The notes under the pieces were generated by a model, which ran no database searches, was not told where the DNA came from, and saw only the letters and a program-made list of their open reading frames with translations. This document shows, piece after piece, positions 40,399-45,480 of a DNA stretch of 64,000 nt; position 1 is the stretch's first letter; every line of letters begins with the position of its first letter. The translations under genes were made by a program, and so were the position numbers. Source of the DNA: Vallitaleaceae bacterium (lineage in GTDB: Bacteria; Bacillota; Clostridia; Lachnospirales; Vallitaleaceae); assembly GCA_028277605.1 (NCBI GenBank), contig JANQFZ010000017.1, positions 1 through 64,000 of the forward strand, in the 5' to 3' direction.

Positions 40399-41304
40399 AT
40401 GATAAACAAAAAAGTATATCCAGCTGAAATGTCTACACAGACCTTTGGTAAATTAACCATTAATGTGGCAACTCAAGTCGGCTTAAAACCTATAGAAGGT
40501 GCTCAGGTCATCGTAAGAAAAACAGGTGTAGATACTCCAGTTATAGAGCAACTGGCAACTGATGGATCTGGTCAGACGGTTACAGTTGAATTGGAAACAC
40601 CGCCTTTTGAGGCAAGTCAAGAACCAAGTGACCAAAAGCCTTATGGAGAATATACAGTTCAAGTTGCAGCTCCCCAGCTCAATCCTGTTCAAGTAGATGC
40701 TGTTCAACTCTTAGCGGATCAGACAGCCATTCAAGCTATACGAATGATTCCACTAGCTGAGATTTCCTCTCAACAAGCACAACCTATTGTTATTGATCCT
40801 CATACGTTATATGCTGAATATCCCCCCAAAATACCAGAAGATGAGATTAAGACAGAGGTAGATGAACCTGATTGGGTTGTACTACCATTTGTTCAAGTTC
40901 CTGAAACTATTGTTGTACATGATGGTGTTCCTAATGATACATCTGCTCCTAATTATTTTGTTAATTTTAAGGAGTATATAAAAAATGTTGCCTCATCAGA
41001 AATCTATTCTACGTGGCCAGAAAACACTATTATTGCGAACATACTAGCTGTTTTATCTTTTACCCTTAATCGAGTTTACACAGAATGGTATAGAAATAAA
41101 GGTTATAGGTTTACCATAACCTCTTCGACTGCTTTTGATCATAAATTTATTTATGGTAGAAATATTTATAGAAACATATCAGAAATAGTTGACACTGTCT
41201 TTATAAATTATTGTTCTAGACCGGGTATTCGTCAACCGTTATTTACACAATATTGTGATGGTCAACGGGTTAGCTGTCCTACTTGGATGTCCGTGTTGCA
41301 GTAG
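40399..41304 (+). CDS. sleC: SleC-like spore cortex-lytic enzyme, 5' part of a split gene
   Basis: The first 297 codons (to the ATG at 41287-41289) encode an N-terminal beta-rich pro-region (about 15-120), then the SleC/SpoIID-type core with VQVPETIVVHDG, EYIKNVASSEIYSTWPENT and FTQYCDGQRVSCPTWM. After that the frame runs into the inserted element and stops within five codons (SVLQ-stop). The peptidoglycan-binding C-terminus is missing here but is found in the same frame at 45097-45480. TAGAGGA precedes the ATG. In Clostridia, SleC degrades spore cortex during germination after cleavage by Csp proteases. A CATATACT sequence upstream resembles a sigma-E -10 box but I found no convincing -35. 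Confidence 0.85.
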   Translation: MINKKVYPAEMSTQTFGKLTINVATQVGLKPIEGAQVIVRKTGVDTPVIEQLATDGSGQTVTVELETPPFEASQEPSDQKPYGEYTVQVAAPQLNPVQVDAVQLLADQTAIQAIRMIPLAEISSQQAQPIVIDPHTLYAEYPPKIPEDEIKTEVDEPDWVVLPFVQVPETIVVHDGVPNDTSAPNYFVNFKEYIKNVASSEIYSTWPENTIIANILAVLSFTLNRVYTEWYRNKGYRFTITSSTAFDHKFIYGRNIYRNISEIVDTVFINYCSRPGIRQPLFTQYCDGQRVSCPTWMSVLQ

Positions 41305-41315
41305 GGAATAAATAA
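41262..41315 (+). other. Left attachment site (attL) of the inserted element
   Basis: Gene half-site TCCTACTT, core GGATG (41285-41289), then the element arm GCAGTAGGGAATAAATAA (41298-41315). The arm starts nine bases from the dyad axis, which falls between T41288 and G41289. Confidence 0.8.
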
Positions 41316-41344
41316 GAATAAATATTGTTTGTCAGACAATTGAA

Positions 41345-41373
41345 AAGGGATATCCCTAAGGTATCCCCTTTCT
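41345..41373 (-). terminator. Hairpin after the GNAT gene
   Basis: Near-perfect stem (AAAGGGATA with TATCCCCTTT, one-base bulge) just after the acetyltransferase stop codon; weak U-tract on the minus strand. Confidence 0.5.
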
Positions 41374-41378
41374 TGTTA

Positions 41379-42269
41379 TTATCTTTCTCTCCACATAGTA
41401 GTAGTAGCATATGGACGCATCCCAATACTATAATAAAACTGTTGTGATGATCCTACCAAAGTACTTTTAGCACCAAGTTTTCCAACGCGTCGAATTCCCT
41501 CAAGGACTACTGCTTTTCCTAATCCCATCTTACGATAATCAGGGTCAGTTGCTACTGGTTCTATAACTGCATAACCAGCTTTAGTATCATACCACATTCC
41601 ACTATAAGCAACAAAATTGCCATTTGGTGCAACTACAGCTAGCTTTAGATTCAAATCTGCATTAGGACGATTCATAGATTCTGCAAATTCACTTTCATCT
41701 TTTTGAGAAAATTCAAACTTACCTTCACCATTTAACTCATGGTTAAAACCTTTCCATAATACACGTCCATATTGGTATAAATCATAAGTTTCTTTCATTG
41801 AAGTAATGTAAAATCCTTCTGGCAAATCATATGCTATAGGTGATTTATCAAGATAAAAAATAGCATCACTTTCTTTCTTTTCTGTAGCAATGAAATTAAG
41901 TTTGGCGGCAATACTCTGAAACTCTAAATCAGTATCTGCAATCATAACTCCAAATTTTCCATCTTTCACCAAATTACTTTTTGCATACAGCAATATATCA
42001 TTTTTTAAGAATGTATATTGAGGTAGTGTTAAACAAAACCCAACTCCTAACTGACAATCAAAAGTTGCTACTCCTACAATTTCCTTAGCATTCTCCCATA
42101 TACCAATTTTACTTACTGAAGCTTTATCTAAATAACTATGGGTTATCATCCAATCCCATCTTGCATATGTAAATTCTGTATATCCCAACTTTAGTAAAAA
42201 CGTTCTTACTTTAAAATAATCATCTGTAATACCTGCTTGTTTTGTATAATTTCTAAATTGTATTGACAT
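41379..42269 (-). CDS. GNAT-family acetyltransferase (element cargo)
   Basis: Soluble protein of 296 residues. The C-terminal GNAT domain has the acetyl-CoA motif VATDPDYRKMGLGKAVVLEG (near residue 245), and the N-terminal half looks like a degenerate second acyltransferase domain. GGAGG lies upstream of the ATG. It is inside the element that splits sleC, in the same direction as the recombinase. The substrate is unknown; it is probably a passenger. Confidence 0.8.
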   Translation of the reverse strand: MSIQFRNYTKQAGITDDYFKVRTFLLKLGYTEFTYARWDWMITHSYLDKASVSKIGIWENAKEIVGVATFDCQLGVGFCLTLPQYTFLKNDILLYAKSNLVKDGKFGVMIADTDLEFQSIAAKLNFIATEKKESDAIFYLDKSPIAYDLPEGFYITSMKETYDLYQYGRVLWKGFNHELNGEGKFEFSQKDESEFAESMNRPNADLNLKLAVVAPNGNFVAYSGMWYDTKAGYAVIEPVATDPDYRKMGLGKAVVLEGIRRVGKLGAKSTLVGSSQQFYYSIGMRPYATTTMWRER

Positions 42270-42338
42270 AGGTAAACCTCCTTTATAAACTATAATACCC
42301 CTTGATTAATATTGTATAAATATACAGTTTACCTATAA

Positions 42339-42440
42339 TCATTCTATACCCAACCCCAAAACAGTTTTCATTTCTTGTGTCATGTTCATTAATTTTCTAC
42401 TTTCTTTAAATCGTTTACCAATTACTTTGTAATCAATCAT
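42339..42440 (-). pseudogene. Fragment of an XRE-type helix-turn-helix gene
   Basis: Thirty-three codons, KVIGKRFKESRKLMNMTQE..., match the first helices of an XRE-family DNA-binding domain; the stop comes before the recognition helix. The remainder is absent, so it is taken as a remnant. Lies between the GNAT and recombinase genes. Confidence 0.5.
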
Positions 42441-42445
42441 TTTTA

Positions 42446-42592
42446 TCACTCTGCTTTTGTTGTCCACGTAACTGATAATGGACTATATACTTCTAGCAAT
42501 TTAAAATATGTATTTAATTTATGTATCCCACCTACAACATATATTTTACCATTAACTTCAGCTCCTCCCATATTTATTCTCTCAATCGACAT
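42446..42592 (-). pseudogene. Fragment of a Kelch-repeat gene
   Basis: Forty-eight codons with one recognisable Kelch repeat, GGAEVNGKIYVVGG ... LEVYSPLSVTWTTKAE. No further repeats and no full-length frame nearby. With the XRE fragment it shows that the 698-bp gap (42270-42967) is decayed cargo; I see nothing else coding in that gap. Confidence 0.5.
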
Positions 42593-42967
42593 AGAAGTCT
42601 TGTCCCTAAATCCTCACCTTCAGCACCTAATACAGTGAGTGACTAGTCATAAAATAGCTACAACATTACAAAACTGAATAATCTTTCGTGTTTTTTCATA
42701 TACATTCATCCTTTTCTAGTAATTTATTCTATCATTATATCATAGTACTTATGTAATGTTTAGTATTATAACCAGCTTAACTAGGTAGTATAATATAGTG
42801 TTATTATCTCTTGTAAATTATTTTGTTACGCCAATAATTAACAAAGCAGCTTATATCTAATGTAAAACTAATATCCCATATATATAAATAAACACGATAT
42901 ATTTAGCACAACAATATAATAATTATAAGATAAGGAACGTTATACAATGTTCATTATAGCAAAGGTA

Positions 42968-44413
42968 TCAATATAAATATGGATAGTAATTGATTTCTAC
43001 AGTACCTTTAGAAACGTCTACTACTATATTTTTTACAAACGATTTTAATACTCTGTTTTTCTCGATTACTGATAAAGTTTTATCTTTTAGTATGTCATAC
43101 ACATTGCTCTTTCTATATCTAATGAATTCATCTGCACTATAAGAACTAAGTGATAACTTATTCAATTGGCTCTTAATGCTCTGTTCTTCTTTTGATATGG
43201 ACTCTTTATTACTCTTGTACTCAACTAATGTATCAATTTCTTCTAAGAAAGCTTCTTTAGCTAGCTGATACTTGTTTTGAATCTTTATCAACTGTCTATT
43301 CAGTACATCAAGATTTAGAACTTTATTTGTCTCTGGTATCCGTTCTACATCAAAGTATAAATCATTCATGTCTTCGTAAATCTTATCCAATATAACTGAC
43401 TCAAGTCTCTTTAATGAAATACGGTTTGAATACTGACACGACCCTTTTAAATATTTATTACATACATAATAATGATATTTACCAGTACCATTTAAAGTCA
43501 TGGGTCCCCCACAATAAGCACACTTAACAACTCCGGATAACCAGTGACCATACTCGCTTGAAGGTCTATATTTATTACCATGTATCTCCGAGATATGTTT
43601 AAGTTTATTGACTGCTTTATCATATATTTCCTTAGAAATAATTGGCTCATGATCAGCTTTAGCAATAATCCATTCTGATTCATCGTTTATTTTGTTATTC
43701 TTACGATAGTTCCATCTTGTATACCCTGCATATATAGGATTATGTAAAATATACTTAATGTTTCTTTTCTCAAAACGATTGCCTTTGCTTGTTCTAAAGC
43801 CTAATTCATTCAAGTACTTAGTAATATCATGAATTGTCCTGTCCTCATTCACAAACTTTTCAAATATAGAACGAATAATTAACGCTTCTTTGGGGATAAT
43901 AACTGGTGGTTTTTTACTCTCTACTATTGTATAACCTAACGGCGGTCTAGCTAGATACCCTCCCCTCTTTGCCTTTTCAACCATGCCTTTTTTAACTTCA
44001 TCAGCTAGGTTTAAACTGTAATATTCAGCCATAGCTTCAAGCATGCTCTCGAGAATAATAGAAAATTTGTCATCCTCAAGCTGTTCTGTAATGCTGATAA
44101 CTTTAATACCACATTCCTTTCTTAGTAGAGATTTAAAGACAACGCTGTCCTCCCTATTTCTAGCAAATCTATCAAACTTATGTACTAAGATGACATCAAA
44201 TAATTTTTCTTTTGCAAGCTTAATCATTTTCATAAAAGCTGGTCTTTTTTCTGCTTTTTTACCACTTATTCCTTCATCAGTAAATACAAACTCAGGTTTA
44301 ATAGCAATATTATTTTTTTCAGCATAGATATATATGGCATTCTTCTGTGCTTCAGGACTAAACTCAATTTGTTCATGAGTACTAACTCTAATATAGGCTG
44401 CCCCTCTCAGCAT
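42968..44413 (-). CDS. Large serine recombinase (SpoIVCA-type)
   Basis: Site-specific recombinase of 481 residues. The N-terminal resolvase domain has the nucleophile Ser11 in AYIRVSTHEQ. The recombinase domain (about 160-260; PPLGYTI, NPIYAGYTRWNYR) and a zinc ribbon (CAYCGG ... YVCNKY-x-x-GSC) follow, ending in a coiled coil (about 350-440) used for directionality control in this family. Length is close to Bacillus SpoIVCA (about 500). Its ATG overlaps the stop of the 52-residue ORF (TAATG). It should cut at the GGATG core of the element ends. Confidence 0.95.
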   Translation of the reverse strand: MLRGAAYIRVSTHEQIEFSPEAQKNAIYIYAEKNNIAIKPEFVFTDEGISGKKAEKRPAFMKMIKLAKEKLFDVILVHKFDRFARNREDSVVFKSLLRKECGIKVISITEQLEDDKFSIILESMLEAMAEYYSLNLADEVKKGMVEKAKRGGYLARPPLGYTIVESKKPPVIIPKEALIIRSIFEKFVNEDRTIHDITKYLNELGFRTSKGNRFEKRNIKYILHNPIYAGYTRWNYRKNNKINDESEWIIAKADHEPIISKEIYDKAVNKLKHISEIHGNKYRPSSEYGHWLSGVVKCAYCGGPMTLNGTGKYHYYVCNKYLKGSCQYSNRISLKRLESVILDKIYEDMNDLYFDVERIPETNKVLNLDVLNRQLIKIQNKYQLAKEAFLEEIDTLVEYKSNKESISKEEQSIKSQLNKLSLSSYSADEFIRYRKSNVYDILKDKTLSVIEKNRVLKSFVKNIVVDVSKGTVEINYYPYLY

Positions 44414-44571
44414 TATAGATCATCTCTTTTGTTAGATTCTATAACTTTATATCCCAAAGCTTTTAATGCTTGCTTATTTAGTTTAAAACTATAAAACTGT
44501 TTCTCTTTATCAGATAAATTTTTAAACGCTATGCGATCTTTATTGAGCACAATGTAAGAAGTAACTTTCAT
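44413..44571 (-). CDS. 52-residue protein coupled to the recombinase
   Basis: MKVTSYIVLNKDRIAFKNLS..., basic and helical, encoded directly before the recombinase with overlapping stop and start (TAATG). Ribosome site weak (AGGGTGTG). Small genes next to sporulation-linked serine recombinases often encode the directionality factor that drives excision (SprB in SP-beta, CD1234 in the C. difficile skin). That role here is inferred from size and position only. Confidence 0.65.
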   Translation of the reverse strand: MKVTSYIVLNKDRIAFKNLSDKEKQFYSFKLNKQALKALGYKVIESNKRDDL

Positions 44572-44904
44572 TATTCAATCACACCCTATACAAATAGCTT
44601 TATATGTTACAATATATGAATAACAGGTTGTCTAATTTGCTAACAATCAACAATCTATATCCTATCAATAACAAAAGTTCATTACTTGACTTACATCTTT
44701 TTAAATGTTAAACTTTTAACATACTGTATCTGTTAGTATATTACTCAAATTTTTATGATTAATAGTCGTATTTTTACTAGTCCTTATTAAAGATTGAACA
44801 TTATACTAATATAATTTACATAGGATTATTTAATAATAACTTTAAGTTTATTTATCTAATATTTTGTTTTTTAAATATATTATATTAATGAAAGGTGTAT
44901 GGTT

Positions 44905-45018
44905 ATGAAAAAAAATATCAAACAAAGAGTAGTAATTCACATGATTGATATGTTGGATAAAAACAGGAGATTATTAAACCAAATAATGAAATTTCAGGAC
45001 ATAAAAAATACTATATAA
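44905..45018 (+). CDS. 37-residue ORF near the right end of the element
   Basis: MKKNIKQRVVIHMIDMLDKN..., charged and probably helical, on the strand opposite to the recombinase. AAAGGTG lies seven bases before the ATG. It ends 54 bp before the left arm of attR. An alternative candidate for an excision factor. The 330-bp stretch before it (44572-44904) shows no gene; it must hold the recombinase promoter. Confidence 0.45.
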   Translation: MKKNIKQRVVIHMIDMLDKNRRLLNQIMKFQDIKNTI

Positions 45019-45071
45019 TAACTGCGATTGGTTGTTTATTCTTTCCTTATCAAGTTGATTAAGATTAGACT

Positions 45072-45112
45072 TTATTTATCCCCTACTGCCACAAGGATGA
45101 GGCAGTGGGAAA
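45072..45112 (+). other. Right attachment site (attR) of the inserted element
   Basis: Element arm TTATTTATCCCCTACTGC (45072-45089), core GGATG (45095-45099), then the gene half-site AGGCAGTGGGA. The arm is the inverted repeat (17 of 18) of the arm in attL. Confidence 0.8.
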
Positions 45113-45480
45113 GTAAATATGATGGTGATGCTGGCTTAAGAGCGGTAGAAATCTTAAGAAAATATTATGGTCAGGATTTATTCATTAACACAGCTACAGA
45201 AGTTGCTGGAATACCTTCCTCATGGCCGGGATTTAATTTACAGCAAGGCTCAAGAGGAGAGCCAGTAAGAACCATACAAATGCAGATAAATGCAATTTCA
45301 AATAACTACCCCGCCATTCGTAAGGTTAGGGTCGATGGTATTTTTGGACCAGAAACCAAAGAAGCCGTTCAGAAATTTCAAGAGGTGTTTTACCTGCCTC
45401 CAAATGGTATTGTGGATTATCCAACATGGTATAAAATATCTGATATATTTGTTGCCGTTACAAGATTATCTGAGCTATAA
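45095..45480 (+). CDS. sleC: SleC-like spore cortex-lytic enzyme, 3' part of a split gene
   Basis: Codons for RQWESKYDGDAGLRAVEILRKYYGQDLFIN continue the SpoIID-type motif seen in intact family members. They are followed by a PG_binding_1 domain (LQQGSRGEPVRTIQMQIN ... VDGIFGPETKEAVQKFQ) and the family C-terminus. The open frame reaches back to 45028 only by chance in element sequence and has no ribosome site, so this part cannot be expressed alone. Joined to 40399-41289 at the GGATG core it gives 423 codons, the usual size of clostridial SleC. A strong hairpin follows. Confidence 0.85.

Follow-up and report, generated by a model that had tools for sequence, protein, structure and literature searches.

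A split sleC gene in Lachnospirales-like bacteria is a probable new target of sporulation-timed DNA excision

The sporulation genes known to be interrupted by intervening elements are sigK, spsM, spoVFB, spoVR, gerE and yabG (PMC5595907, PMC6957869, PMC10747680). The skin element, which splits sigK in B. subtilis and C. difficile, encodes a large serine recombinase, has its core repeat in the coding frame of the gene, and is excised to rejoin that gene with the help of a recombination directionality factor (RDF) under mother-cell control (PMC5025042, PMC6957869), namely that of sigma-E and SpoIIID (PMC5025042). The gin element in gerE of Bacillus cereus ATCC10987 is a non-prophage element of 28.6 kb with three recombinases whose excision has been experimentally shown; it employs the GirC recombinase together with GirX, and its att sites combine an inverted repeat with a short core (PMC5595907). 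In Clostridium botulinum V73, yabG is split by yin, a serine recombinase element that is a prophage unique to this one strain, and since YabG processes pre-pro-SleC in C. difficile, yin affects the germination pathway to which SleC belongs (PMC10747680). SPbeta in spsM, vfbin in spoVFB and the spoVR element likewise split mother-cell genes and are excisable (PMC4191935, PMC6957869). C. difficile cannot do without SleC in germination, and its gene is transcribed from a sigma-K, that is, mother-cell, promoter (PMC3789822). Our search of the open-access literature found no case of an intervened sleC. The locus described here suggests that sleC is a new target gene for elements of the skin, SPbeta, gin and yin kind, and one with unusual recurrence.

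The window, by which we mean the whole 64,000-nucleotide stretch of DNA that was analysed, comes from a Vallitaleaceae genome of 3.34 Mb in 86 contigs that is 97.7% complete. The split gene and the element within it are composed as follows.

40399..41289, + strand: sleC 5' part, codons 1-297, with the pro-region and the SpoIID-like catalytic core
41285..41289, + strand: left GGATG core copy, inside attL, with the predicted crossover at the central TG
41290..45099, no strand assigned: sleC-intervening element, 3,810 bp
41347..41367, + strand: weak terminator-like hairpin, just inside the element past the stop of the 5' part
41379..42269, - strand: GNAT-family acetyltransferase, 296 aa, cargo
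42968..44413, - strand: large serine recombinase, 481 aa, the proposed excision and integration enzyme
44413..44571, - strand: 52-aa ORF, candidate recombination directionality factor
44611..44640, - strand: suggestive sigma-E-like promoter preceding the 52-aa ORF and recombinase, GCAAATT - 15 nt - CATATATT
44905..45018, + strand: 37-aa ORF
45095..45099, + strand: right GGATG core copy, inside attR
45100..45480, + strand: sleC 3' part, codons 298-423 and stop, with the peptidoglycan-binding domain

The 5' reading frame (ORF 40399-41304, + strand) enters the element by four codons and stops at 41304, and the downstream codons are contained in a second ORF (45028-45480, + strand), the break separating the SpoIID-like core from the peptidoglycan-binding domain. 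The earlier note on this DNA had claimed that codon 297 lies in one of two GGATG copies that share a reading frame and that joining them restores a 423-codon gene with both of these regions. The coordinates bear this out: counted from the ORF start at 40399, the ATG at 41287-41289 is codon 297, and joining across the GGATG copies removes 3,810 bp, restores the frame and places the peptidoglycan-binding domain at joined residues 349-409. The restored product is homologous to pre-pro-SleC over its full length, matching the pre-pro-form of the spore cortex-lytic enzyme in PDB 9h68 at residues 17-422 (E 6.6e-123), and it aligns from end to end with the intact SleC of family members at 62-65% identity. 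A second sleC was not found in the window's genome, sigK is intact in it, and its three SleB-like matches all fall below the family cut-off; an alternative cortex-lytic pathway besides SleC may conceivably exist in this organism. The hairpin at the element's left end should be read against a terminator scan that gave no excess over expectation (2 sites found, 1.4 expected), and the 37-aa ORF has no family match.

Large serine recombinases act on a symmetric attP that has a central dinucleotide and on a weaker attB, and cross over in frame (compare PMC5595907). The ends of the element correspond closely to this anatomy. When they are closed into a circle the junction reads CCCTACTGCCACAAGGATGTCCGTGTTGCAGTAGGG, a dyad about the TG of GGATG in which 22/25 half-site positions are symmetric; among 200,000 random joins of the window flanks the maximum was 17. 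The empty site in the joined sleC has 13/25 symmetric positions. To judge by its sequence, the closed-circle dyad is the hallmark expected of a large serine recombinase attP, and the arrangement of the putative att sites fits precise excision. The 481-aa protein carries Resolvase, Recombinase and Zn_ribbon_recom domains in a single chain and has a PHROG match annotated 'integrase', so that the 'SpoIVCA-type' label first given to it stands at the level of a large serine recombinase and no further. In the phage collection its matches were integrases only, at up to 41% identity, and no sleC-type attP lay near the two of these that we examined; a scan of IMG/VR recovered relatives, none of them in sleC. 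The locus thus has the coding frame of a germination gene interrupted between halves that rejoin exactly, by an element that has its own serine recombinase and matching att sites. As in skin, the recombinase is internal and the core repeat lies in the coding frame, with excision here being predicted; as in gin, the element is not a prophage and its att sites have a comparable build, although it is of 3.8 kb, has one recombinase and is known from sequence.

The window is one instance of a recurrent pattern. Of 392 genomes sampled from the order, 241 have a sleC match, and in at least 24 of these, or about one in ten, the gene is split; outside the order this was seen in 0 of about 53 sleC-bearing genomes (Fisher p 0.011). 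Fourteen genomes of the sample are split at the same codon as the window, which we call site B (G000, G008, G035, G055, G061, G080, G113, G253, G282, G297, G305, G346, G357, G378), eight at codons ~230-234, or site A (G183, G270, G325, G343, G368, G370, G297, G346), and four at further sites (G232; G051, G073, G210). Several of these loci lie on a single contig, that of G378 lies in a closed chromosome, and, in addition to the sample, the complete genomes of three Anaerocolumna species have site B split by elements of 2.6-3.3 kb. Site B falls in a highly conserved stretch of sleC codons, CPxWM|TQW. Every alignable site-B junction joins in frame with a TG-centred core, and those with a clear register have the TG of GGATG as their centre and 13-19/25 symmetric positions, whereas the site-A joins are centred on a GT within Trp-Tyr codons; these symmetry values exclude the rows that the automatic finder mis-registered because the core was short or the halves lay on separate contigs (W, G055, G325, G282, G357, G297, G232), the window's site being measured separately. 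The contigs of G346 that end exactly at the core were considered as a circular or excised form and rejected, since their ends share only four bases and hence offer no joined path. In G183 a second, divergent sleC paralogue is also split (L063, 868-4026), by a 1.9-kb insert nearly filled by a 535-aa recombinase.

These breakpoints bear on whether the two parts are simply translated separately and act together, making excision unnecessary. The window's break, which parts the catalytic core from the peptidoglycan-binding domain, would suit such a split protein. However, the 3' part is without a credible start, the choice being a TTG 69 nt upstream that has no ribosome-binding site or the core ATG itself; site A cuts inside the SleC catalytic region; and with an insertion at site A as well as at site B, G297 (L050/L051) and G346 (L052/L053) have sleC in three parts. 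We therefore regard a split protein as highly improbable. Reassembly of sleC by excision would require two such events in the latter genomes.

Insertional inactivation is the more ordinary reading, in which a mobile element has killed sleC and the species manages without it. The general anatomy is indeed that of an integrative element with cargo, such as the GNAT gene here and an SMR pump, an ECF sigma factor or pilus genes elsewhere, and the 3' half in G357 is somewhat weaker. An insertion that killed the gene should, however, leave its promoterless 3' half to decay. In all 24 split genes the severed 3' half is full length. Their 3'/5' identity ratio, in a comparison that includes the window's sleC, is 1.13 (n=24) against 1.08 in intact genes (n=29). 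Selection was estimated in relatives with a split sleC rather than in the window's own lineage, and pairwise dN/dS is rough at the divergences involved, though the contrast is large. G061 and G080 share one element, with recombinases 74% identical, and their sleC dS values of 2.3 and 1.6 are near saturation; dN/dS is nevertheless 0.014 (5' half) and 0.032 (3' half). In the Anaerocolumna trio (dS 1.1-3.0) the corresponding values are 0.06-0.09 and 0.03-0.04, with 0.10-0.14 for the recombinase and 0.18-0.24 for the small ORF. Purifying selection on both open, full-length halves at divergences near dS saturation is a strong argument against a dead sleC and for excision, and the recombinase, too, is kept (dN/dS about 0.1). 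With no second sleC in the window's genome, we consider plain inactivation quite unlikely. The substitution patterns indicate that the two halves are needed together, that the element is retained, and that the split gene has stayed functional over evolution. The earlier note's reading of a precisely excisable element in sleC is accordingly strengthened by the att anatomy and by selection on the relatives' halves; the pattern it had set against this, an intact second copy beside a decayed split one, is not what the window's genome presents.

In a phylogeny of 43 recombinases, those of the sleC sites form dedicated clades. Site-B members fall into two well-supported clades, one comprising the window, G055, G035 and G008 and the other Anaerocolumna, G253, G061/G080, G378, G282, G297 and G305, with sister recombinases from other loci placed between them; those of site A make up a third, distant one. 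In the SleC tree, for which sampling was uneven as split genes were chosen deliberately, split and intact genes interleave such that at least 6 changes are needed. Element size ranges from 2.6 kb in Anaerocolumna to the 36.6-kb prophage at site B of G378, which carries a complete phage head and tail gene set and is the only phage-like one among the sleC elements checked. Cargo is likewise varied, with a sortase and SpaA pilins in G061/G080, an ECF sigma factor and DUF4367 in G055, and an SMR pump in G035. The element of G008 (L032, 3079-7886) holds a complete germinant receptor operon of the gerA type, with GerA, GerB and GerC types and a second GerB (permease), an instance of germination cargo within a split germination gene.

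Related recombinases were also observed away from sleC. Sister recombinases in Petroclostridium sp. X23 (L101, 5986-7964) and at L085 and L105 abut a manganese-catalase (CotJC-like) ORF that begins at profile position 43, which suggests a split spore-coat gene. Within the window's family (L077, L078, L074, L120), related recombinases, often as a convergent pair, flank an ORF beginning MTCVAPVVFDECGINLCREIKIPEC that has no Pfam match and that occurs with related recombinases in an IMG/VR viral contig as well. At L083, L086, L106 and L107 they lie in or beside genes for NMT1/THI5-like substrate-binding proteins, which by their position would be a target unrelated to spores for this group of recombinases.

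The 52-aa ORF lies directly upstream of the recombinase gene and overlaps its start by one base, much as skr, the RDF gene of B. subtilis, overlaps the start of spoIVCA (PMC6957869). Members of its family, marked by the motif LSxEEK...LNxKALRAxGY, adjoin the recombinase in most site-B elements, divergently in Anaerocolumna and others and upstream with an overlap in the window. A family search found no known RDF relative and the phage collection no match; the AlphaFold model is a beta-hairpin and helix (pLDDT 83), for which a fold search returned no match at E < 0.001. Its position and recurrence suggest that this protein is the directionality factor. Upstream of it in the window, GCAAATT and CATATATT at a spacing of 15 are close to the sigma-E consensus, a match that is suggestive only (shuffle p 0.02-0.03). 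Across six lineages, sigma-E matches upstream of the small ORFs have single p values of 0.02-0.7 and a combined p of about 0.02; such matches are absent in the elements of G008, G035 and G305 and weak elsewhere. Taken together, these upstream matches are suggestive of sigma-E control over the small ORF and recombinase. The Anaerocolumna species have a common motif, AATATGTACAA...CATARATT, upstream of the small ORF. The small ORF of G253 (L046, upstream of 4503) has an exact sigma-K-type match in front of it, AC-17-CATAACTTA (p 0.03), which differs from the sigma-E-like sites of other elements.

Promoter type is relevant to a further possibility, that a mobile element is excised and reinserted in a subset of growing cells, germinable spores arising only from cells that have lost it. 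Yin in yabG of C. botulinum offers a precedent, with excised and integrated cells present at all time points (PMC10747680), and some of the recombinases do have sigma-A-like sequences upstream. Were good spores to come only from element-free cells, however, the element would be lost, yet it has been kept across species of two groups as dS nears saturation, and several small-ORF upstream regions are sigma-E-like. Growing-cell flipping is in our judgement unlikely.

We consider it highly probable that this is a developmental gene-intervening element, whose sporulation-timed excision in the mother cell would rejoin sleC exactly. We infer that excision occurs, that it is timed to the mother cell and that the 52-aa protein takes part; the timing is suggested by the sigma-E-like promoter and by the place of sleC in the sigma-K regulon of C. 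difficile. A large serine recombinase would have integrated (attP x attB) at the conserved CPxWM|TQW stretch; during sporulation it and a small directionality factor, for which the 52-aa protein is the probable candidate, would recombine attL with attR. Crossover at the TG of GGATG would release a 3.8-kb circle and rejoin sleC in frame within the mother cell, the compartment that produces SleC. In the forespore, the chromosome would retain the element, which would thereby be inherited despite loss of the mother-cell copy. Recombinase, attL/attR and RDF acting together in the mother cell are the simplest account.

This system differs from those described previously in several respects. Compared with skin, the gene encodes a germination enzyme rather than a sigma factor, the elements are of 2.6-8 kb with few or no phage genes, and one gene is the shared target of two to three recombinase lineages that are unrelated to each other. 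SPbeta, vfbin and the spoVR element belong to Bacillus species and interrupt spore-envelope or DPA genes, SPbeta being an active phage; in contrast to yin, the sleC elements are recurrent and long inherited. It is reasonably likely that sleC in this Lachnospirales-like order is a standing target, reached by at least 2-3 unrelated recombinase lineages at several conserved sites, with germinant-receptor genes in some elements and two excisions in some species, such that germination would be set by mother-cell recombination.

The targets of rearrangement known so far are regulators (sigK, gerE), coat or envelope genes (spsM, yabG), DPA synthesis (spoVFB) and spoVR, whereas in the case of sleC the rearranged product would be the cortex hydrolase itself. 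Bacteria with a split sleC almost certainly depend on cutting and rejoining their own DNA for germinable spores, and since SleC is essential in C. difficile, spores should still form if the rearrangement failed but be unable to wake. As these elements include very small recombination modules of 2.6-3.8 kb, and as the split gene occurs in culturable species with complete genomes (Anaerocolumna), it becomes testable why mobile elements repeatedly pick terminal mother-cell genes, and whether they may tune germination heterogeneity in the spore formers of gut and soil.
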